A stretch of 64,000 nucleotides of DNA from Thioalkalivibrio sp. ALJ16. Lineage in GTDB: Bacteria > Pseudomonadota > Gammaproteobacteria > Ectothiorhodospirales > Ectothiorhodospiraceae. Of this stretch, positions 41,260 to 60,600 are shown piece after piece. A program made the translations under genes and the position numbers. The stretch spans positions 1 to 64,000 of the forward strand of contig NZ_KB898045.1 of the NCBI RefSeq assembly GCF_000377345.1, written 5' to 3'. How positions within the stretch are numbered: the stretch's first letter is position 1; each line of letters starts with the position of its first letter. Under the pieces are notes generated by a model that worked only from the letters and a program-made list of their open reading frames with translations, had not been told where the DNA came from and did not search any database.

Positions 41260-41289
41260 CGAACCCCGTTTCCGGAAGGAGCCTTTGTG

Positions 41290-41931
41290 ATGTTTGCGTT
41301 TTCCGAACCGCGCATGCCCGCGCCCGAGGAGGCCCTGCCCGGGCGCGACGAGCCGCTGCCGGTCCCGCCGCGGCACATGGTACTGGGCACGCCGTTGGCG
41401 CCGCCCTATCCGGATGGCATGCAGGTACTGCATGTGGGCATGGGCTGTTTCTGGGGCGCGGAGCGGCTGTTCTGGCAGACCGATGGCGTGTATTCGACCA
41501 GTGTGGGCTATGGCGGTGGCTACACCCGCAACCCGACCTATCGGGAGGTCTGTTCCGGGCAGACCGGGCAGACCGGGCATACGGAGCTGGTGCGTATCGT
41601 GTTCGACCCGGCCCGGGTCCCGCTCGAGACGCTGCTGCGCGTGTTCTGGGAAGGGCACGACCCGACCCAGGGCATGCGCCAGGGCAATGATGTCGGCACG
41701 CAGTACCGCTCCGCGATCTATGTGGACTCGGCCGAGCAGCAGGCGGCCGCCGAGGTCAGCCGCGAGCGCTACCAGGCCGCGCTGGACGCCGCAGGGCGCG
41801 GCGCCATCACCACGGAGATCCGGCCACTGGACGCCTGGTACTTCGCTGAGGACTACCACCAGCAGTACCTCGCCCGCGTCCCGGACGGCTACTGCGGCCT
41901 TGGCGGCCTGTCCGTGCCCTATCCCGCCTGA
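41290..41931 (+). CDS. msrA: Peptide-methionine (S)-S-oxide reductase MsrA
   Basis: A 213-residue enzyme repairing methionine-S-sulfoxide. The catalytic motif GMGCFWGAE is followed by [23 protein letters not shown]-type sequence, [13 protein letters not shown] and QYRSAIYV. The C-terminus lacks the usual resolving-Cys pair apart from YCGLGG. A GTG at 41287 is an alternative start, just before the ATG used; AAGGAG lies about 9 bp upstream. The N-terminal 45 residues precede the catalytic core and have no signal peptide. Confidence 0.92.
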
Positions 41932-41960
41932 GTATCCGTCCGGCCAGGGTGGCCGTGGGG

Positions 41961-42118
41961 CTAAAAAGGCGATTCACAGGAAGACGTGAAGAGTGGAAGA
42001 CAGATCCTGTTGACCGCGACAAGCCACCGTCCACGTTGTGTGTAGTGCGATAAACGCTGCCTCAGCTCGTCACCCAAAAAAACCCTCCCATCTTCCAAAC
42101 TTCCTGTGAATCGCTTAG
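41961..42118. repeat. Palindrome-ended repeat, family B copy 2
   Basis: The 158-bp segment begins CTAA and ends TTAG. The inner arms GCGATTCACAGGAAG (41969-41983) and its exact reverse complement (42100-42114) flank a non-coding core with a poly-A run. The arms extend into GAAGACGTGAAGAGTGGAAG, which matches repeat copy 1 at 11429. It lies in the gap between msrA and the GATase gene, and could act as a bidirectional transcript end. Confidence 0.65.
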
Positions 42119-42149
42119 GGCCTGCCTTGCTCATCCACTCCGTGATGGA

Positions 42150-42971
42150 TCAGGGTTTCGTGGAGGCGTGTACGAGTGCGTGGAACAGGCGCTGATGGCG
42201 GTGCTTTTGCGGCAGGTATTCGGGGTGCCACTGCACGCCCACGCACCAGCCGTGCTCGGCCTCGATCGCCTGCACCACCCCGGATCCCTCGTGCGCGGCC
42301 ACCCGCAAGCCGCGACCGAGGGTGTCCACGGCCTGGTTGTGCAGGGCGTTTACGTGCAGTGGTGTGTCGCCAAGGATGTCCGCCAGGTGGCTGCGTGGTT
42401 CCAGTGTGACCGGTTTCACCGGCAGCAGGCTGCGGGCCTGGGGCGTTTCCACGTAGAAGTCGGTCAGGTCGCGCTGCAGCGTACCGCCGCAGACCACGTT
42501 GACCAGCTGCATGCCGCGACAGATGCCGAGGATGGGGCAGTGGTCGTCCAGGGCGCGGTGGATCAGGGCCTTTTCCAGCCGGTCGCGGTCGATATCGAGC
42601 ACGCCCCCGTGCGACTGGAACAGCCGCCGCAGCAGCCACAGCGCCGGGTAGAACAGGTAGCCAATCAGGCGCTGGGAGAGGCGGCGTTCGGCCGCGCGGA
42701 TGGCATCGGCATCCGGCCCCTCGGGCAGCGTCTCGCCGTAGAGTTCCGGGTCGACGTCGGCGCCGCCGCCGATGATCAGCCCATCGAAGTGGCAGTGGCT
42801 GCGGGGCTTGCCCGGGCGCAGTCGCAAGGGCCGCCCGCCGGCGCGCCAGACGGCCAGGGCCGTAAACAGCCAGGCGGGGCCGCCGCCGTGGTCCGGCCCG
42901 GTGATGGCGATCACTGGGCGCCGGGGCGGCGGCGTCAGCGGGTCCGCGCTGGCGTGTTCAGAACCACTCAC
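42150..42971 (-). CDS. Class I glutamine amidotransferase-like hydrolase (gamma-glutamyl-GABA hydrolase family)
   Basis: A 273-residue protein. GLIIGGGADVDPELYG, PILGICRGMQLVNVVCGGTL (catalytic Cys) and GVQWHPEYLPQ (catalytic His-Glu) place it in the PuuD/gamma-glutamyl hydrolase group, which cleaves gamma-glutamyl amide bonds. An insert between about residues 75-110 contains a hydrophobic stretch (LIGYLFYPALWLLRRLF) unusual for PuuD. It starts inside the end of the amidoligase gene (14-bp overlap), so the pair is coupled; the amidoligase presumably makes an amide that this enzyme trims or recycles. No polyamine catabolism genes flank it. Confidence 0.85.
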   Translation of the reverse strand: MSGSEHASADPLTPPPRRPVIAITGPDHGGGPAWLFTALAVWRAGGRPLRLRPGKPRSHCHFDGLIIGGGADVDPELYGETLPEGPDADAIRAAERRLSQRLIGYLFYPALWLLRRLFQSHGGVLDIDRDRLEKALIHRALDDHCPILGICRGMQLVNVVCGGTLQRDLTDFYVETPQARSLLPVKPVTLEPRSHLADILGDTPLHVNALHNQAVDTLGRGLRVAAHEGSGVVQAIEAEHGWCVGVQWHPEYLPQKHRHQRLFHALVHASTKP

Positions 42972-43950
42972 GGATGCGCTGGCTCCAGTCGTCTGCCCAG
43001 CGGCCCAGGGCCTGCCCGGGACGTTCGAGATATTCCCGGGTCAGCCGGTCCAGGCGTTCCGGGTTGGCCGCAAGTCGCTCGACCTCCACCCAGCCATTGA
43101 AGGGTCGGGCCAGACTCCAGTCGGGGTCGTCGATTTCGCAGTTGGGCAGGCGGTAATGGAACGCCGGGCGGGGCTTGATCAGTTCGTGTTCCACCGGCGC
43201 TGCGGCTACTCGGTCCGGGTCCAGGTGGGCGAACAGCGGCAGCAGGTCCAGCGGGCGGTTGCGGGTCGGGCTGTGTTCCAGGTAGGCGTCGATCAGCGCG
43301 GCCTGGTCGGGCTGGAAATCCGGGTCCAGCATGGCGCGCACGAAGGTCCCGGGAAAGGCCCGGATGTACGGCGACAGCCGGCGTGCCAGGTTGATGGCGC
43401 CGGCCGCGGTCAGGGCCTCGTACAGCAGCAGGAAGGCCCGCAGCACGGCCAGAATCCAGCGCGCATCGGTGCGGTGGATCTCGATGTTCAGCTGCAGTCC
43501 GAAGGCGTAGAGCAGGGAGGTCTCCGTGCCCTGGGCACCGGCCTGCTGCAACTGAGCGCGTACCCGGTCCAGCCGCGGCAGCATCGCGGCGGGGATGGGC
43601 GGGGCGACGATCTCGTGGGGTACCAGGTGGCCGGCGGCATCGGCCAGCCAGCGGTCCAGCGCGGCCTCGTCGGAGTCGTCCAGCTCGATCCCGAGTCGCC
43701 GCAGGTGTTCGCGATAGGCGCGATCCTTCAGTACCCGGGCATCCAGTTCCAGCTGGAAGTCCCCCACTTCGGAATCCTGCACCTGTGCCACGAAGGCATT
43801 GTCGTGCTGGATGTGTCCGCCGAACTCCTCCTGCACCGCGGCGGCCATGGTCTCGAGTGAAACGCCGGCCATCTCGATCTCGACGCCGATACGGCGGGGC
43901 TGGCCGTCGGGGGCTTCGTTCCAGGGCAATTCGTGAAAGGGCTCGCTCAT
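42958..43950 (-). CDS. Putative amidoligase
   Basis: A 330-residue soluble protein of the putative amidoligase family, part of the carboxylate-amine-ligase/glutamine-synthetase-like fold. The opening RRIGVEIEMAGVSLETMAAA (IGVEIE is a metal/ATP strand), the segment VGDFQLELDARVLKD, HEIVAPPIPAAMLPRL and GLQLNIEIHRTDARWILAVLRAFLLL carry the conserved acidic and His residues. Such enzymes are predicted to form amide bonds using ATP; the substrate is unknown. It overlaps the class I amidotransferase by 14 bp, a pairing predicted for small peptide or amino-sugar modification. No other biosynthetic genes are beside it. Confidence 0.8.
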   Translation of the reverse strand: MSEPFHELPWNEAPDGQPRRIGVEIEMAGVSLETMAAAVQEEFGGHIQHDNAFVAQVQDSEVGDFQLELDARVLKDRAYREHLRRLGIELDDSDEAALDRWLADAAGHLVPHEIVAPPIPAAMLPRLDRVRAQLQQAGAQGTETSLLYAFGLQLNIEIHRTDARWILAVLRAFLLLYEALTAAGAINLARRLSPYIRAFPGTFVRAMLDPDFQPDQAALIDAYLEHSPTRNRPLDLLPLFAHLDPDRVAAAPVEHELIKPRPAFHYRLPNCEIDDPDWSLARPFNGWVEVERLAANPERLDRLTREYLERPGQALGRWADDWSQRIREWF

Positions 43951-44061
43951 GTCGCCGCCTGTCGGAATGTGGTGCCCATGATAACGGTTCGGTATCGCGG
44001 TCGCGCCTCAGGTAGGATTGGCGCGCCTGGCAAATACCGCCCCGCTGTGGAAGAACGGACC

Positions 44062-44424
44062 ATGGATCGAATCTATCTCAAGGATCTGCGCATTGATGCC
44101 GTGGTCGGCGTCTATGACTGGGAACAGCGCCAGCAGCGCCCGCTGCGCTTCGACATCGAGCTGGCCACCGATACGCGGGTGGCCGCGCACTCCGGCGAGA
44201 TCACCGACACCGTGGACTACGAGGCTGTGGCGAATACGGTACGCGCCATCGTCACGCGCGAGCCCCACACGCTGCTCGAATCCCTCGCCGAGGAGATCGC
44301 CGAGACCCTGATGACCGCGTTCCGCACCCCGTGGGTGCGCATCGATCTGGGCAAGCCGGGGGCGGTCGCGGGTGTCGCCGAGGTCGGTATCCGGATTGAA
44401 CGCGGGGTTCACCCGGGTGGCTGA
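44062..44424 (+). CDS. folB: Dihydroneopterin aldolase
   Basis: A 120-residue folate enzyme converting dihydroneopterin to 6-hydroxymethyl-dihydropterin. MDRIYLKDLRIDAVVGVYDWEQ is the usual start (catalytic Glu in DWEQ... region), TDTVDYEAVANTVRAIV holds the Tyr/Glu site and LLESLAEEIAETLM is typical. The chosen Met follows GAACGGACC. An intrinsic terminator 30 bp downstream isolates it from torF. Confidence 0.92.
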   Translation: MDRIYLKDLRIDAVVGVYDWEQRQQRPLRFDIELATDTRVAAHSGEITDTVDYEAVANTVRAIVTREPHTLLESLAEEIAETLMTAFRTPWVRIDLGKPGAVAGVAEVGIRIERGVHPGG

Positions 44425-44668: not shown

Positions 44669-45382
44669 ATGAAGAAGTTCACCCGCTCCGCACTGGCTGC
44701 CGCCGTCCTCACCGTGGGTTCCACGGGTGGCGTTGCCTTTACCTCCACCGCCGCCGCGGAACTGTCCGTGAACATTGGCGCGGTCTCCAATTATTACTTC
44801 CGCGGTTTTTCCGAAACCGACGGCGGTGCGGCCATCCAGGGCGGCATCGATTTTGAACATGAATCCGGCTTCTACGTAGGCACCTGGGCGTCCAATGTCG
44901 ATTTCGGCGATGACACCAGCTACGAGCTCGATCTCTACCTGGGTTTTGCCGATGAATTCGACAGTGGCTTTGGCTACGACGTCGGTTACATCTACTACGC
45001 CTACCCCGATGCTCGTGATGACACCGGCTCCCTGAGCGCCGACTTCGGCGAGATCTACGGTGAAGTCAGCTTTGACACCGGTGTGGTCGGTCTCTACGGC
45101 GGTATGGCCTACGTCGTCAACGACAGCGATGATTCCGCTCTCGAAGATGACGATATGTACTTCTACGCCGGTCTGGATATCCCGTTCATGGATGTCTACA
45201 GCGCCGGGTTCATGGTCGGCCGCACGAAGTTCGACGACTCCAGCCTGGATAACTACACCCATTACACCGCAAGCCTGACCCGTGACGCGGGCGACTGGGG
45301 CGAGTTCAGCTTCAACCTCGAATACGTCGATGAGTCCGACGAGGACCTGGGTGCCTGGGTGGGCTGGTCCAAGACGTTCTAA
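44669..45382 (+). CDS. TorF-family putative porin
   Basis: A 237-residue outer-membrane protein. The signal peptide (about 1-30, ending AAAA-ELS) is followed by LSVNIGAVSNYYFRGFSETD, the hallmark of TorF porins, and alternating Tyr/Phe-rich beta strands; it ends in Phe. Asp/Glu residues are abundant (pI low), as in halophiles. The function of TorF porins is not well known; here it is first in an operon with glnK and amtB under NtrC/sigma-54 control, suggesting a role in letting ammonium or another nitrogen source through the outer membrane. A ribosome site, GGGAGAAG, precedes the ATG. Confidence 0.88.
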   Translation: MKKFTRSALAAAVLTVGSTGGVAFTSTAAAELSVNIGAVSNYYFRGFSETDGGAAIQGGIDFEHESGFYVGTWASNVDFGDDTSYELDLYLGFADEFDSGFGYDVGYIYYAYPDARDDTGSLSADFGEIYGEVSFDTGVVGLYGGMAYVVNDSDDSALEDDDMYFYAGLDIPFMDVYSAGFMVGRTKFDDSSLDNYTHYTASLTRDAGDWGEFSFNLEYVDESDEDLGAWVGWSKTF

Positions 45383-45407
45383 TCCCTGCTCTACCTCTTA
45401 ACGCTAA

Positions 45408-45788
<381 letters not shown>

Positions 45789-45823
45789 GGCCTCCGTCTT
45801 CCATCGAATGAGGAATTTCAATC

Positions 45824-47077
45824 ATGGAAATTGAACAGCAAGTTGTCGAACTCGCCTACGCAATGGACACCTTTTACTTTCTGGTGGCCGGCGCGCTGGT
45901 GATGTGGATGGCCGCGGGCTTCACGATGCTCGAGGCCGGTATGGTCCGCAGCAAGAGCGTGGCCGAAATTGCGACCAAGAATATCGCGCTCTACTCGATC
46001 GCGAGCATTATGTACATGCTGATTGGCTACAACATCATGTACGGCGACGGCCTGAGCTCGGTGATCCCGAGCATCGGCTTCCTGATCACCGGCGACAACG
46101 CCGTGGGTGACGTGCTGGGTAGCGATGGCGACATCTACTACTCCGATCGTGCCGACTTCTTCTTCCAGGTCGTGTTCGTGGCTACCGCGATGTCCATCGT
46201 CTCGGGTGCCGTGGCCGAGCGGATGAAGCTGTGGGCCTTCCTTGCCTTTGCGGTCGTGCTGACCGGCTTCATCTACCCGATCCAGGGCTTCTGGAGCTGG
46301 GGCGAAGGCTTCCTCGACCAGATCGGCTACCTCGACTACGCGGGTTCCGGCATTGTCCACTTCACGGGCGCCGCTGCTGCGCTGGCCGGTGTGCTGCTCC
46401 TCGGGGCGCGTAAAGGCAAGTACGGCAAGGATGGTCAGATCAACGCGATCCCGGGCTCCAGCATGCCGCTGGCCACCCTGGGTGTGCTGATCCTCTGGCT
46501 GGGCTGGTTCGGCTTTAACGGTGGCTCCGAACTGAAGGTCTCGGATGTCGAATCCGCCAATGCCGTGGCCGCCGTGTTCGCCAACACCAACCTGGCCGCG
46601 GCCGGTGGTGTGGTGGCTGCCCTGATCACCACCCGTCTGGTGTTCGGCAAGGCCGACCTGACCATGGCGCTGAACGGCGCGGTCGCGGGCCTTGTGTCCA
46701 TCACCGCCGAGCCGCTGATGCCCAGCCCGTTCCTGGCCGTCATCATCGGTGCCGTCGGTGGCGTGATCGTGGTGTTCTCGATCGTCGCGCTGGACAAGCT
46801 GAAGATCGACGATCCGGTTGGTGCGATCTCCGCGCACGGTACCGCCGGTATCTGGGGTGTCTTCGCGGTGCTGCTGTCCAACCCGGATGCGACCTTCGTC
46901 GCTCAGCTGCTGGGTCTGCTGTCCATCTTCGTGTTCGTCTTCGTGGCCTCGCTGATCGTCTGGGCCATCCTGAAGGCGGTGATGGGTATCCGCCTGAGCG
47001 AAGAGGACGAGGATATCGGTGCCGATATCGCCGAGTGCGGTCTCGAGGCCTATCCGGAGTTCACCGGGAAGCAATAA
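45824..47077 (+). CDS. amtB: Ammonium transporter AmtB
   Basis: A 417-residue transporter with 11 predicted helices. Typical motifs are DTFYFLVAGALVMWMAAGFTMLEAGMVR at the start (residues 15-42), DYAGSGIVHFTGAAAALAGVLLLG (first pore His at HF), GWFGFNGGSE and HGTAGIWGVFAV (second His-Gly). The C-terminal tail (SEEDEDIGADIAECGLEAYPEF) is the GlnK-binding region. Trimeric AmtB imports ammonium and is blocked by GlnK. It has no cleavable signal peptide, as in some Amt proteins. Confidence 0.95.
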   Translation: MEIEQQVVELAYAMDTFYFLVAGALVMWMAAGFTMLEAGMVRSKSVAEIATKNIALYSIASIMYMLIGYNIMYGDGLSSVIPSIGFLITGDNAVGDVLGSDGDIYYSDRADFFFQVVFVATAMSIVSGAVAERMKLWAFLAFAVVLTGFIYPIQGFWSWGEGFLDQIGYLDYAGSGIVHFTGAAAALAGVLLLGARKGKYGKDGQINAIPGSSMPLATLGVLILWLGWFGFNGGSELKVSDVESANAVAAVFANTNLAAAGGVVAALITTRLVFGKADLTMALNGAVAGLVSITAEPLMPSPFLAVIIGAVGGVIVVFSIVALDKLKIDDPVGAISAHGTAGIWGVFAVLLSNPDATFVAQLLGLLSIFVFVFVASLIVWAILKAVMGIRLSEEDEDIGADIAECGLEAYPEFTGKQ

Positions 47078-47188
47078 TCCCCGGTTAACCTGACGCGGGT
47101 TCGGTCCGGTGCGGCCGGATCGAACCCCGAACAAGTCTCCTCCGAAGCCGACAAGACAGTCTCCCAGGACTAGAGGATGTTGGCATTT

Positions 47189-47215
47189 GGGCGCCCCCCC
47201 GGGGCGCCCTTTTTT
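47189..47215 (+). terminator. Intrinsic terminator after amtB
   Basis: GGGCGCCCC (47189-47197) pairs with GGGGCGCCC (47201-47209) across a 3-base loop and is followed by six T. It lies 112 bp past the amtB stop and separates it from fetA. Confidence 0.9.
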
Positions 47216-47305
47216 ATGTGGCGCCTGCGCGCGCCGATCCGGTTTTTCCGGCCGCCGCGCACCCATCGGTTAGGATTCCCTGATCGCCGGACCGGAAATG
47301 CCCGC

Positions 47306-47926
47306 ATGGACCCCCTTCTCGACGTACAGCAACTCAAGACCGCCCACCTGGGCCCGCTGGATCTGCGGCTTCAGCCAGGTGAGCTGGCACAGGTCACCGG
47401 TGCATCCGGCGCCGGCAAGTCCCTGCTGCTGCGCGCGCTGGCGGATCTGGATCCGAACACCGGCTCGGTCCGCCTGGCCGGCGTGCCGCGCGAATCGATG
47501 CCCCCGGTCCAGTGGCGCTGCCAGGTGGCCTATGTGCCAGCCGAGACGGCCTGGTGGGGCGAGCGCGTCGACGAGCACCTGCCCGGCGAATTCTCGCGCG
47601 ATACGGCGCTGCATCTGCTGGAGCAGGTCGCCCTCCCGGAAGATGCCCTGCACTGGGAGGTCGAACGCCTGTCCAGTGGCGAAAAGCAGCGTCTGGGGTT
47701 GCTGCGGGCGCTGTTGAACCAGCCGCGTGTCCTCCTGCTCGATGAGCCCACCGCCAACCTTGATCTCGACAACACCCGACGGATCGAGCGGGCCGTGCGG
47801 AGCTATCTGGCCGAGCAGGACGCCGCGGCCCTCTGGGTCAGCCACGACACCCTGCAGCGCCAGCGTCTGGGCGGACGCATCCTGACCATCCGCGAAGGAC
47901 TGCTGGAGGCGCCGGCATGGACCTGA
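47306..47926 (+). CDS. fetA: ABC transporter ATP-binding protein FetA-like
   Basis: A 206-residue ABC ATPase. Walker A is TGASGAGKS, signature LSSGEKQR, Walker B VLLLDEPTANLD and switch His in WVSHDT. It is short, as FetA (YbbL, 225 residues). With fetB it exports iron or a related metal; family evidence comes from E. coli FetAB. The ATG of MDPLLDVQQLK is chosen; an upstream open stretch overlaps the terminator and is not used. Its end overlaps fetB by ten bases. Confidence 0.85.
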   Translation: MDPLLDVQQLKTAHLGPLDLRLQPGELAQVTGASGAGKSLLLRALADLDPNTGSVRLAGVPRESMPPVQWRCQVAYVPAETAWWGERVDEHLPGEFSRDTALHLLEQVALPEDALHWEVERLSSGEKQRLGLLRALLNQPRVLLLDEPTANLDLDNTRRIERAVRSYLAEQDAAALWVSHDTLQRQRLGGRILTIREGLLEAPAWT

Positions 47927-48723
47927 TCTCGCTCTCCGCGGTCGACCTCGCCCTCGCCGCGCTGCTGGTGATTGCGCTGGCCGGGGTCACGGTATGGGCA
48001 CGGATGGGGCTGGGGCGCAGCCTGGTGATCGCCGGGGTGCGTACCGTGATCCAGCTGCTGCTGGTCGGCCTGATCCTGCAGACGCTGTTCGACCATGCGC
48101 AGCTGGGCTGGGTCGCCTTGATGGCTGTGGTGATGCTGGCGGTCGCCGGTTACGAGGTGATGGCGCGCCAGCAGCGCCGCTTCGTCGGCCTGTGGGGCTA
48201 CGGGATCGGCACTGCCACCATGTTCATCTCCGCCTTCGCGGTCACGGTGCTGGCGCTGACCACCATGGTCGGGCCCACCCCCTGGTGGGAGCCGCAGTAC
48301 GCGATCCCGCTACTGGGCATGCTGCTCGGCAACACCATGACCGGCATCGCGCTGGGGCTGGACCGCCTGACCCAGACCGTCTGGCGCGAGCGGCGCACCA
48401 TCGAGGGACGGCTGGCGATGGGGGCCTCGTGGAGCGAGGCGGTCACGACCATGCGCCGCGAGGCGGCGCGCTCCGGCCTGATGCCGACCATCAACGCCAT
48501 GGCCGCCGCCGGCATCGTCAGCCTGCCGGGCATGATGACCGGTCAGATCCTGGCCGGCGCCCCGCCAGTGGAGGCCGTGAAGTACCAGATCCTGATCATG
48601 TTCCTGATCACCGCCGGTACCGGCTTCGGCACCCTGGGCGCGGTCTGGTTTGCTTCCCGCCGCCTGTTCGACACCCGCGAGCGCCTGCGCCTCGACCGCC
48701 TCAAGGCCGGCCGCCACACCTAG
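47917..48723 (+). CDS. fetB: ABC transporter permease FetB-like (UPF0014 family)
   Basis: A 268-residue permease with seven hydrophobic segments, starting LSAVDLALAALLVIALAGVTV. GVRTVIQLLLVGLIL, LLGMLLGNTMTGIALGLDRL and MPTINAMAAAGIVSLPGMMTGQILAGA are the family markers. It forms the iron-export ABC transporter with FetA and helps against oxidative stress in E. coli. Overlap with fetA shows translational coupling. Confidence 0.88.
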   Translation: MDLISLSAVDLALAALLVIALAGVTVWARMGLGRSLVIAGVRTVIQLLLVGLILQTLFDHAQLGWVALMAVVMLAVAGYEVMARQQRRFVGLWGYGIGTATMFISAFAVTVLALTTMVGPTPWWEPQYAIPLLGMLLGNTMTGIALGLDRLTQTVWRERRTIEGRLAMGASWSEAVTTMRREAARSGLMPTINAMAAAGIVSLPGMMTGQILAGAPPVEAVKYQILIMFLITAGTGFGTLGAVWFASRRLFDTRERLRLDRLKAGRHT

Positions 48724-57141: not shown

Positions 57142-60100
57142 TCAGCGAAGCTGAATCCACGAACGCGGGCGGATGGTTCCAGTCCCGGGGCCGGCGAGCT
57201 CTTCCGGGCCGTCCGCGTCAGTGCCGCCAAGAATCCGAGTGATGGTTCCGTCGGGGCTCTGCACAACGGTTGGGGTGGCCATGATCCCGATTCCGGGGTC
57301 CACGGCGCTGACGGGAATGTCTTCGCCATCAATGTTAATCATGTCGCCCACACCGAAGTCGCCGTCATTGTTCAGGTCAAAAACCGGGTCGTTGGGTCGG
57401 CCGCCAGTCGCGGCATCCAGCGCAACGAGCGAAGATGATCCGCCACCTGCGCACGGATCGTCCGAAGGGGTGAGTGTGACGAACTCAACGCGCCCGCCAA
57501 CGATCTGGGCGCGTTCAACGACACGTTCACCTTCTGGGCTCGGATAATCCAGGTCGATATACCACCCTTCATGCACACTGGAATCGAAGCCCTCACCGGA
57601 GGAAGTCGCGCGCACATTGAAGCCTTCGATTACACCCTCACCGATGAATTCATTGCGGTACAGGTTGTTGCGGCTCACCGGGGTCGAGATGCTGTCATAG
57701 TCGCGGATACCGTAGAAGCTCTGGACCGGTGCGGGGCTCGGTACCTGGTTGTCGGCGTTTTCTAGGTATTTGCCGGTTCCGAACAGCACAATCGACCCGC
57801 CACCAGGGTGGGTGCCTACCGTCGGCCGGGCGGTGATCGGTTGCGTCTCGCCATTTGGAGCCGTTGCCTGAAAGTGCAGGTTGGCACCCCACTGGTTGGT
57901 CGTGTTCGTGTTGCTGATATCGAACTTCCAAAGGTTGCCCTGCAGATCACCGGCGAAGCCGTCCTGGATCACGCCTTCCGCGTTGGCCCGAAAGGTCGCC
58001 TCGGATAGGCCATTGCCACCAGTGGCACCAGTTCCCAGCTCGAAAACGCTGCCCGATGCCAGGTTGGCAACTATCAGGATCGCCTCGTCGGCGTCGCTCC
58101 CATAACCATTGGCGAAGAGGGCTGACCACTGCCCGTTGGCCGTTTGGGCGACCGTTGGCGCCCCGAACGTATGTCCCAGTGCGCTAATGTCGTCGCCTGA
58201 CAACTCCCAGAGGATGTTGTCGGCAGAGAAACTGGTGGGGTCGGTGACGTCCAGTGCGTAGATACCGCGCCCCCCGGCGCCGAGTGTGCCGACCAGTACC
58301 GTGCGCCACGAGCCGTCGATCTGCGCGTGAGCGATGGTCTGCTGGCCGTCCACGAAGAACTGGTGGCTGTAGTTGGGATCGGCCAGATCCGGAAGCTTGT
58401 CAAACACCGCGTTGGGTACGAAGGCAAAAAGTTCTTCTCCCGTCTGTCCGTCAAACGCGTGGAGCATCCCGGCGTTGCCTCCCACGTAGACAACCTCGGG
58501 GATAGTCTGGTTATCGGACCGGAACTGCGTGTAGCCGTCCATCTGTGAGTACCCGAAATTCAGATTAGGGGTCTGGACAGCCGGGCTCGAGTTGATGAAG
58601 TTGCCCAGGGGATTCGAGCGATTACGCCACTCGCCTCCGTTTTGGAGTTCGTGGCTTGGATCGCCTCGCAGGTATGCCAGTAGGTCGGGACCGGTCAGAT
58701 TCGACCCGCCAGAGAGTACCGGAGCGTCGGAAAGGATTTGTTGCTGTGTGGCACTCAGGTTGTTCCAATCGAAGGAAATCCCCTCGTTACCGTCATAGGA
58801 AAAAATGTTGCGATTCTGTGGTTGAGGCAGAGCTTCGGACGCGACCCACTGTTCAGAGAAGACACCTTGGTCCAGCAAGAAATCAAAGGCTCGAAGGTCT
58901 CCCGACCAATCGGCCGAGTTGAACGAGGCCTGATACACCAGGTTGGTCCCGTCAGGTTGGTAGGTGGTTGACGCGGCCGCCACAGAGGATGCGCTGCCGG
59001 TAGCCTCGGCGATGATGGCCTCGAAGATCTGGCTCATCGCGAGATCAAGGCCTTCCTCGTCGGTTGCATCGAACGCCGTGCCTGTGCCGCCGGCCTCGGC
59101 CAGCAAGTTCAGTGGATTTTCAGGCATTCCCGGGATGCCAGACACGCCAGGAGGCAGGGCAAACCCCACAATGTATGTGCTCACTCCCGTGTCGTTATGG
59201 AAGTTGGCAACAGCCTGCTGGGCATCTTCGAGGGCCTGCGGCAGGTCCGCGCCCAAGCCAATTCCATCGGCGGACACAGAAGGCAAACCATCCGTAACCC
59301 AAATGGCCGCGTTTACACCGCAGCTTCTCGGCATCTGTGCCGCGTTGTCGGATCCTTGGTTGTTCCCCAGCGCGCTACCGGGAGTACCCGTCATGTCTCC
59401 GCTTTCATCCGGGTGCACGAACTGCAGGAAGTAATCCCGAGCCGTTTGCATGGTGCCTTCGAGCGGCGTCAGGCCTGATGCAATTAGTGGCCACGATGGG
59501 TCGGACATCGGGTTGCCCGTGCCATCCCAGTCATGGCGCTGCGGTTGCAGCTTGGTGCGAATGGCCTCCCAATGGTCGCTGTCGATGCTTCCGTCTTCGT
59601 TCAGGCCGCCAACGGGAACGTGCAGATATCCGAGTCCGGGTGATTGCGTGTTTCGCCACTCTAGCTGGTTATATTGAAAAAACACCGCACGCTGTCCCCA
59701 GCTAGTGATATTTCGCTGCCGCTGGCTGTCGACCAGAAAAGTGTTAATTGTCCCTGTGGGACTGGCGAAATACAGCCCACTGTCTGGGTCCAAGAATGTT
59801 TGTGTGCCGCCGAATGTACGGAGGTCTGCGTAGCGATTGTTCTGGAATCCATCGGGCGGGTTGTTTTGAGACGTGTTACCTGTGTACCACCGATACTCAG
59901 TTTGGTCCGATGTTGGGGTCCCGAAAGAACCATCACCCGTGTCCCAGAAATATCCTGGGACGCCATCGTTGAAAAATATCCAGATGTTGTCACGCGTCGG
60001 GTGAGGTGCGCGAAAGCGCTTGGTGCTGGAATCCCAAGCCCCTTCGAAGTCCGGGTCGTACCAGTCCGGTTCCGGGTCAGTGCTGAAGCGGGTGTCAATC

Positions 60101-60600
60101 GCACGCTCCACCAATCGCCAGCGCACGGTTCCGCCCGCGTTAAAGGCGTTGCGGTTGTTACTGGCGGGCATCTGTTGATAGGACATCAGGCCCAGATTCA
60201 CCTGGCCTTCGTACTGATTGACGAGGTTGAGGCCCACGCGCTTAACGATACTGCCCTTACTGTTGGGGTGCCTGGCACCTGCGGGGCAAACGTCATCTTC
60301 CGGGGCGCGGTTGTAGTCGATATCCGGTTCGAGATCTGGGCCCGGCTGGCAGAGCGGATTGTCCTGATCCATGGCCAGACGCCCGTCGGGACTTTCCTGC
60401 ATGCTTTCGGACGTATCCGGAATGAACAGGATGTTCGGTGGCAATGCGGAGTCCTGCAGGAACAGGGGCGTATTGGCCAGGTTAATGCCATGTGCTGTCC
60501 CCGAAAACGCCATGGTGGCTGCAGCAACCGCAATGGTGATGCGGCTGCGGGCGAGCCGAAGCGGACGGGCCGGTGGGGTGTTGGTTCGATATGAAGCCAT
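57142..60600 (-). CDS. pilY1: PilY1-like pilus tip adhesin/assembly protein
   Basis: An 1152-residue exported protein. The signal peptide covers about 1-38; a VWA-like domain has an imperfect MIDAS (PDTSESM at about 60, and AIWVTDGLPSVSADG later); the C-terminal half is a beta propeller (EVVYVGGNAGMLHAFDGQTG is the PilY1 signature). A calcium loop, DLNNDGDFGVGD, lies near the end. PilY1 with the minor pilins starts pilus assembly, sits at the tip and can adhere and sense surfaces. It follows pilX by 38 bp and precedes pilE by 83 bp. Confidence 0.92.
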   Translation of the reverse strand: MASYRTNTPPARPLRLARSRITIAVAAATMAFSGTAHGINLANTPLFLQDSALPPNILFIPDTSESMQESPDGRLAMDQDNPLCQPGPDLEPDIDYNRAPEDDVCPAGARHPNSKGSIVKRVGLNLVNQYEGQVNLGLMSYQQMPASNNRNAFNAGGTVRWRLVERAIDTRFSTDPEPDWYDPDFEGAWDSSTKRFRAPHPTRDNIWIFFNDGVPGYFWDTGDGSFGTPTSDQTEYRWYTGNTSQNNPPDGFQNNRYADLRTFGGTQTFLDPDSGLYFASPTGTINTFLVDSQRQRNITSWGQRAVFFQYNQLEWRNTQSPGLGYLHVPVGGLNEDGSIDSDHWEAIRTKLQPQRHDWDGTGNPMSDPSWPLIASGLTPLEGTMQTARDYFLQFVHPDESGDMTGTPGSALGNNQGSDNAAQMPRSCGVNAAIWVTDGLPSVSADGIGLGADLPQALEDAQQAVANFHNDTGVSTYIVGFALPPGVSGIPGMPENPLNLLAEAGGTGTAFDATDEEGLDLAMSQIFEAIIAEATGSASSVAAASTTYQPDGTNLVYQASFNSADWSGDLRAFDFLLDQGVFSEQWVASEALPQPQNRNIFSYDGNEGISFDWNNLSATQQQILSDAPVLSGGSNLTGPDLLAYLRGDPSHELQNGGEWRNRSNPLGNFINSSPAVQTPNLNFGYSQMDGYTQFRSDNQTIPEVVYVGGNAGMLHAFDGQTGEELFAFVPNAVFDKLPDLADPNYSHQFFVDGQQTIAHAQIDGSWRTVLVGTLGAGGRGIYALDVTDPTSFSADNILWELSGDDISALGHTFGAPTVAQTANGQWSALFANGYGSDADEAILIVANLASGSVFELGTGATGGNGLSEATFRANAEGVIQDGFAGDLQGNLWKFDISNTNTTNQWGANLHFQATAPNGETQPITARPTVGTHPGGGSIVLFGTGKYLENADNQVPSPAPVQSFYGIRDYDSISTPVSRNNLYRNEFIGEGVIEGFNVRATSSGEGFDSSVHEGWYIDLDYPSPEGERVVERAQIVGGRVEFVTLTPSDDPCAGGGSSSLVALDAATGGRPNDPVFDLNNDGDFGVGDMINIDGEDIPVSAVDPGIGIMATPTVVQSPDGTITRILGGTDADGPEELAGPGTGTIRPRSWIQLR

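Follow-up and report, generated by a model that had tools for sequence, protein, structure and literature searches.

Two overlapping genes in the window, the whole 64,000-nucleotide stretch of Thioalkalivibrio DNA analysed here, appear to form a two-gene module that makes and breaks a gamma-glutamyl amide, a reading to which we assign a probability of roughly 0.55. We infer that glutamate is the acyl donor, that both enzymes act on the same bond, and that the hydrolase docks onto the membrane. With energy from ATP, the ligase, of the predicted glutamine synthetase (GS) fold, would activate a carboxylate group, most likely that at the gamma position of glutamate, and couple it to an amine. The partner, a hydrolase with a Cys-His-Glu triad, would attack bonds of this kind by way of a glutamyl-thioester, so that glutamate is set free along with the amine or an amine derivative. 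In the window's clade, a hydrophobic helix that carries basic residues and is inserted beside the active-site loop would place the hydrolase against the inner face of the membrane. The gamma-glutamyl version is favoured because known precedents that combine a GS-superfamily ligase with a C26/GAT-like hydrolase perform gamma-glutamylation and its reversal or completion. It also suits the pair better than the general wording of the initial annotation, in which the two proteins build or edit amide-linked small molecules or modified peptides. The gamma-glutamyl hydrolase type of the partner turns that open-ended description into a testable statement, and a membrane location of the insert-bearing hydrolase, if true, would narrow the search for the amine.

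Gene pair and its setting

The features of the pair are as follows.

42958..43950, minus strand: Amidoligase_2 (PF12224) ligase gene, 330 aa, ATG start; predicted glutamine-synthetase-fold carboxylate-amine ligase
42150..42971, minus strand: Peptidase_C26 / class I GATase-fold hydrolase gene, 273 aa, GTG start; gamma-glutamyl-hydrolase type, SpuA/PuuD-like
42958..42971, minus strand: 14-bp overlap containing the ligase stop and the hydrolase GTG start
42519-42521, 42225-42227 and 42219-42221, minus strand: codons of the hydrolase triad C151, H249 and E251
42594..42734, minus strand: clade-specific insertion, hydrolase residues ~80-126; 35-37 residues longer in most insert-bearing rows than in relatives that lack the insert
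42618..42668, minus strand: hydrophobic core of the insertion, LIGYLFYPALWLLRRLF, hydrolase residues 102-118, within a low-confidence predicted helix (98-117)

Both reading frames are present as initially annotated, with positions 42958-42971 in common. Given the GTG start, the 14-bp overlap is likely real, because a start scan finds this GTG to be the only ATG, GTG or TTG in the hydrolase frame upstream of the conserved R18-P19, and the next in-frame start, V20, drops P19, a residue kept in 102 of 103 alignment rows. Translational coupling at the overlap is probable. The flanking genes, msrA (41287-41931) and folB (44062-44424), both lie on the plus strand, which makes the pair an isolated, closed two-gene unit. 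Consensus scans of 41900-44100 returned neither a sigma-70-like promoter (0.2 expected by chance) nor an intrinsic terminator (1.2 expected by chance). The nearest named relatives are Thioalkalivibrio species, and the ligase is 92% identical to that of Thioalkalivibrio sp. ALJT.

Elsewhere in the window, a Gcw_chp protein (PF09694), a P-II protein (PF00543) and an AmtB-like transporter (by eye) follow one another beyond folB (44669-47077, plus strand). An ABC ATPase gene overlaps a UPF0014 membrane protein gene at 47177-48723 (plus strand), and a 1152-aa protein with a PilY1 beta-propeller domain (PF05567) is encoded at 57142-60600 (minus strand).

Co-conservation and distribution

The ligase is found in 35 of 58 relatives' genomes: in all 30 of the genus (the window's included), in 5 of 7 other members of the family and in none of 21 from the wider class. 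At 30 of 30 loci from these relatives, the window's own among them, the hydrolase adjoins it. A PF12224 match occurs in 20 of 369 genomes of the class, with the hydrolase at 18 of their 21 loci (the exceptions are L031, L050 and L051), and in 17 of 299 genomes of the phylum; 12 of the 17 additional phylum loci fit the family-specific ligase profile, and 10 of these 12 carry the hydrolase. A search of named genomes gave the hydrolase in 77 of 80 loci, the best 80 of 358 relatives; the three lacking it are L113, L127 and L126, the last on a contig that stops just past the ligase. Reading frames picked by profile yielded 109 ligase rows (window included) and 103 hydrolase rows, the six unpaired ligases being L051, L113, L126 (contig end), L127, L142 and L143, with about 1.5 kb of flank covered at L051, L142 and L143. 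This row set leaves out seven PF12224 loci (L031, L050, L144-L148) that do not match the family profile and that also lack the hydrolase, as well as L037, L046 and L047, which are likely repeats; loci from different genome sets may still represent one species twice.

At all 102 paired loci outside the window the hydrolase comes after the ligase in the same orientation; the median distance between the two stops is 785 bp, and in 98 of the 102 the stop-to-stop open frame of the hydrolase crosses the ligase stop. Pairwise divergences of the two proteins correlate with r = 0.85 across 83 rows differing by more than 15% in the ligase, a value that includes shared host ancestry. The co-occurrence analysis proposed in the initial annotation thus bears out a co-conserved pair, and with 102 paired against 6 unpaired loci the family displays the adjoining GATase-like thiol peptidase characteristic of Amidoligase_2 neighbourhoods. 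One genome, G281, carries a second ligase (L051) alongside a complete pair (L045).

Amidoligase_2 proteins of this ligase family are found in several bacterial phyla. Among the best 80 of 358 loci, insert-bearing pairs occur in Gammaproteobacteria, Desulfobacterota, Balneolales and one Bdellovibrionales contig. On the ligase tree, the Desulfurivibrio-type rows L071 and L074 nest among Thioalkalivibrio rows with strong support, a placement that speaks for transfer across phyla, with the two genes probably moving as one unit. At these two loci the pair is preceded on the same strand by a gene for a protein of 181-184 aa with no family match named (L071:9350-9904 and L074:262-807, both plus). The pair of L104, a contig titled Phycisphaerales, is nested among Wenzhouxiangella rows and has the same glnE-like neighbour, so the contig is probably mis-binned.

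The ligase

The ligase matches PF12224 with 197.2 bits (cut-off 22) over profile positions 2-244 of 245, which places it in the Amidoligase_2 family. No exception occurs among 108 rows at E24, E26 and D70, or among 109 rows at E113, N155, R230, R261, H265, Y266 and R267; by analogy with the superfamily, some of these residues may bind metal or substrate. Together with the invariant triad of the hydrolase described below, these ten positions are retained throughout the rows compared, in keeping with the expectation that relatives preserve the catalytic residues of both proteins.

Placement in the GS fold comes from a structural model (mean pLDDT 72.9, built from 13 sequences). Structural alignment against 852 chains pre-ranked by Foldseek puts glutamine synthetases on top (best Z 8.8), with glutamate-cysteine ligase, 1-naphthylamine GS, Dop and YbdK lower down, and all 50 matches listed appear to be GS-superfamily enzymes. 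Foldseek itself gave no match to the ligase at E <= 0.001, its best being E 0.039 in a list that also holds unrelated chains such as gyrase and alditol oxidase. The modelled ligase therefore resembles the GS fold, and the match is a modest one. By sequence, no solved relative is better than E 0.73, and no NCBIfam family covers the ligase. In profile comparison with GCS2 (8 sequences) the match has P 0.017 and a probability of 2.7%, with the GVEIE strand of the ligase laid on the GVElE strand of GCS2; comparison with glutamine synthetase (16 sequences) gave no match. Such comparisons have little power here, because GCS2 against glutamine synthetase likewise gave none. Among the papers listed in our literature searches there is no assigned reaction for Amidoligase_2 proteins of this ligase family, and no functional study or biochemistry on any member of the pair.

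The hydrolase

The second protein scores 143.7 bits against PF07722 Peptidase_C26 (cut-off 20.5), and its triad is complete: C151 is conserved in 102 of 102 rows reaching that position, and H249 and E251 in 101 of 101 each. It thus combines the profile and the Cys-His-Glu triad of a Peptidase_C26 gamma-glutamyl hydrolase, and it is the sole strong PF07722 match in the genome, the other four having E values of 2.4e-9 or weaker. The nearest solved chains, by sequence and by fold, are Lin1909 (uncharacterised), SpuA and PuuD, with GATase subunits behind. According to their entry titles, the SpuA structures solved with Glu or as a glutamyl-thioester carry the H221N mutation, whose site aligns with H249 of the window's hydrolase. 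The protein is not PuuD proper, scoring 79.8 bits against the PuuD equivalog PRK11366 (cut-off 266), and it reaches 36.9 against a cut-off of 250 for the gamma-glutamyl-CDP-amidate hydrolase model. It falls far below the cut-off of every NCBIfam model listed (25 of 26).

The strongest rival to the gamma-glutamyl module is a two-subunit amidotransferase, in which the second protein would hydrolyse glutamine and pass the ammonia to the ligase for conversion of a carboxylate to a primary amide. The partners are near-constant neighbours, as in synthase-glutaminase pairs, and the hydrolase exceeds the PF00117 GATase cut-off (57.6 against 22.8 bits). However, its Peptidase_C26 score is far higher; all GATase-subunit models listed, TrpG/PabA, GuaA, CarA and HisH among them, are far below cut-off; among studied structures, the closest are those of the gamma-glutamyl hydrolases SpuA and PuuD; and five loci have the ligase with no adjoining partner in the flank examined. 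We regard an amidotransferase as unlikely on this evidence, while according it more weight than any other alternative. The designation of the second protein as a class I GATase stands for the fold, but probably not in the sense of an ammonia donor. The protein is closest to the gamma-glutamyl-hydrolase type, a distinction that sequence cannot draw with certainty.

Neighbouring genes

We searched for a third gene by clustering reading frames of at least 80 aa from the best 80 of 358 loci (45 clusters listed) and by inspecting neighbours at up to 27 of the 80. Neither the clustering over 80 loci nor the neighbour reading at some of the 27 produced a constant third gene. Apart from frames overlapping the pair, the widest cluster listed covers 30 of the 80 loci and consists of mixed regulators at varying positions. 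In 18 loci (L087, L090-L094, L096-L099, L101-L107, L112), the pair is succeeded in the same orientation by what looks by eye like glnE, the gene for glutamine synthetase adenylyltransferase. These loci belong to Wenzhouxiangella and related gammaproteobacteria, with the addition of L104; in several of them the open frame of the glnE-like gene overlaps the hydrolase stop. In 20 of 24 Thioalkalivibrio loci, glnK (P-II) and amtB are matched on the far side of folB, msrA is matched in 27 of 80 loci, and metH-like and sulfate-activation-like genes (by eye) follow the pair in others. Although two of these neighbours concern nitrogen, each is confined to some lineages, and we therefore take them as local context. 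In line with the initial suggestion that the pair may act alone, the clustered loci share no constant third gene, and the pair looks self-contained.

This bears on a second alternative, peptide or protein tagging and untagging by analogy with PafA/Dop, in which the ligase would attach glutamate or a peptide to an amine on a protein, for the hydrolase to take off again. The GS superfamily includes Dop, and four Dop entries are present in the fold list (Z 6.2-6.9). On the other side, the best 80 of 358 loci share no constant third gene, and no tag or proteasome family is seen among the nine window neighbours scanned, which leaves tagging improbable.

A third alternative concerns osmolytes. Thioalkalivibrio is a soda-lake genus, and N-carbamoyl-glutamine amide was first isolated from Ectothiorhodospira marismortui. 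An osmolyte route, in which bacteria of salt and soda lakes would use the pair to make or recycle an amide solute, draws on the 24 of the best 80 loci titled Thioalkalivibrio and on the pair carried by Ectothiorhodospira mobilis DSM 4180 (L088). It is the least probable of the three: Desulfobacteraceae, a Bdellovibrionales contig and scattered Gammaproteobacteria carry the pair as well, the nine neighbours scanned include no osmolyte gene, and the habitat signal is biased, the 80 loci being those most similar to the window and hence to a soda-lake genus, so that no habitat enrichment can be claimed. One source lists DSM 4180 as E. marismortui and counts N-carbamoyl-glutamine amide among the solutes that some purple sulfur bacteria use (PMC7824335).

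The hydrophobic insert

The proposed gamma-glutamyl module has a distinctive variant in the window's clade. The part of the hydrolase that links the GGGAD loop to the RD helix is 23 residues long in 23 rows and 46 to 62 residues long in 80 rows, 72 of them with 58 to 60. Trees of 81 rows, with reading frames picked by profile and without L061 and L089, where the contig ends within the hydrolase, each show one change in insert state; its SH-aLRT value is 95 for the ligases and 96 for the hydrolases, whose tree was computed without the insert columns. The insertion of about 35 residues is therefore a single inferred change on both trees. In class I GATases the loop preceding this position forms the oxyanion hole, and because the insert comes after that loop, its probable place is the active-site rim. 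We also considered and rejected a contact in which the insert docks onto the ligase: the partner ligases have no matching insertion, and their gap state differs only at residues 89-91 and 252, in a row set that includes some wrong reading-frame picks.

In 45 of 59 insert-bearing rows no 15-residue stretch of the protein is more hydrophobic than the best one in the insert, and 56 of the 59 have Arg-Arg or Arg-Lys there. A stretch elsewhere is more hydrophobic in the other 14, and the median best 15-residue hydropathy is 1.74 for the insert, 1.43 for the rest of the same proteins and 1.37 for whole insert-free proteins (maximum 2.01); these controls weaken the membrane reading. Over 19 residues, hydropathy reaches 1.6, the usual threshold for a membrane span, in 31 of 61 rows. 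The five Thioalkalivibrio rows among the 20 listed have values of 0.64 to 0.84 and a hydrophobic moment of 0.43 to 0.46, and L076 has 1.23. Since Thioalkalivibrio-type rows fall below the threshold, a membrane-spanning helix is doubtful in the window's own branch, where an amphipathic helix lying on the surface seems more likely. Thus, of the earlier suggestion that an odd hydrophobic insert implies membrane contact, the insert is borne out (80 of 103 rows, one change on the trees), while the contact, given the borderline hydropathy, is plausible; a role in protein contact is also conceivable.

A more specific version, to which we give little credence, would have the insert-bearing hydrolase docked with its active site open to the bilayer, the module reversibly gamma-glutamylating an amphiphilic or lipid-bound amine such as the head group of an amino-lipid. 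If this were true, the pair would adjust surface charge in hosts whose habitats are often alkaline and salty. An obligatory role of ornithine lipid as the amine is unlikely, because three near-complete carrier genomes (G017, G018, G027) have no match to PF13444, itself not a specific marker.

Relation to known systems

The pairing of the two families is not new. In the Pfam description of PF12224, amidoligase genes neighbour a GATase-like thiol peptidase, and Iyer et al. (2009) reportedly described the same association; the window pair has these two families adjoining in the same manner. To our knowledge, neither account mentions the insert or the two clades, and the insert-defined clade is undescribed in the literature searched.

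Two studied systems offer precedents for the proposed chemistry. PuuA and PuuD provide one for gamma-glutamylation, in the putrescine pathway, according to the available text of PMC9397018. PuuD, SpuA and the window's hydrolase have in common the fold, the triad and a VN-x-x-H-x-Q type motif; PuuD and Lin1909 lack the insert in alignments with the window's hydrolase. The nine window neighbours include neither a PuuB-like oxidoreductase nor a PuuC-like aldehyde dehydrogenase, as a puu pathway would have; the one dehydrogenase among them is of the glucose/sorbosone type (PF07995). The window's genome has one PF00120 match.

The other precedent is the aniline pair AtdA1/AtdA2 with the related 1-naphthylamine pair NpaA1/NpaA2. 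Ligases of the AtdA1/NpaA1 type are GS-like proteins and are not known to be Amidoligase_2 members, and the AtdA/NpaA genes sit with dioxygenase genes, whereas none of the nine neighbouring genes scanned in the window is a dioxygenase. As predicted for the window pair, both systems combine a GS-superfamily ligase with a GAT-like hydrolase in the available text of the reports (PMC11335346, PMC4539516). There, AtdA1/AtdA2 are reported to form and cleave a single gamma-glutamyl amide: a GS-like gamma-glutamylanilide synthase is accompanied by a GAT-like enzyme that hydrolyses gamma-glutamylanilide back to aniline (PMC11335346, PMC4539516).
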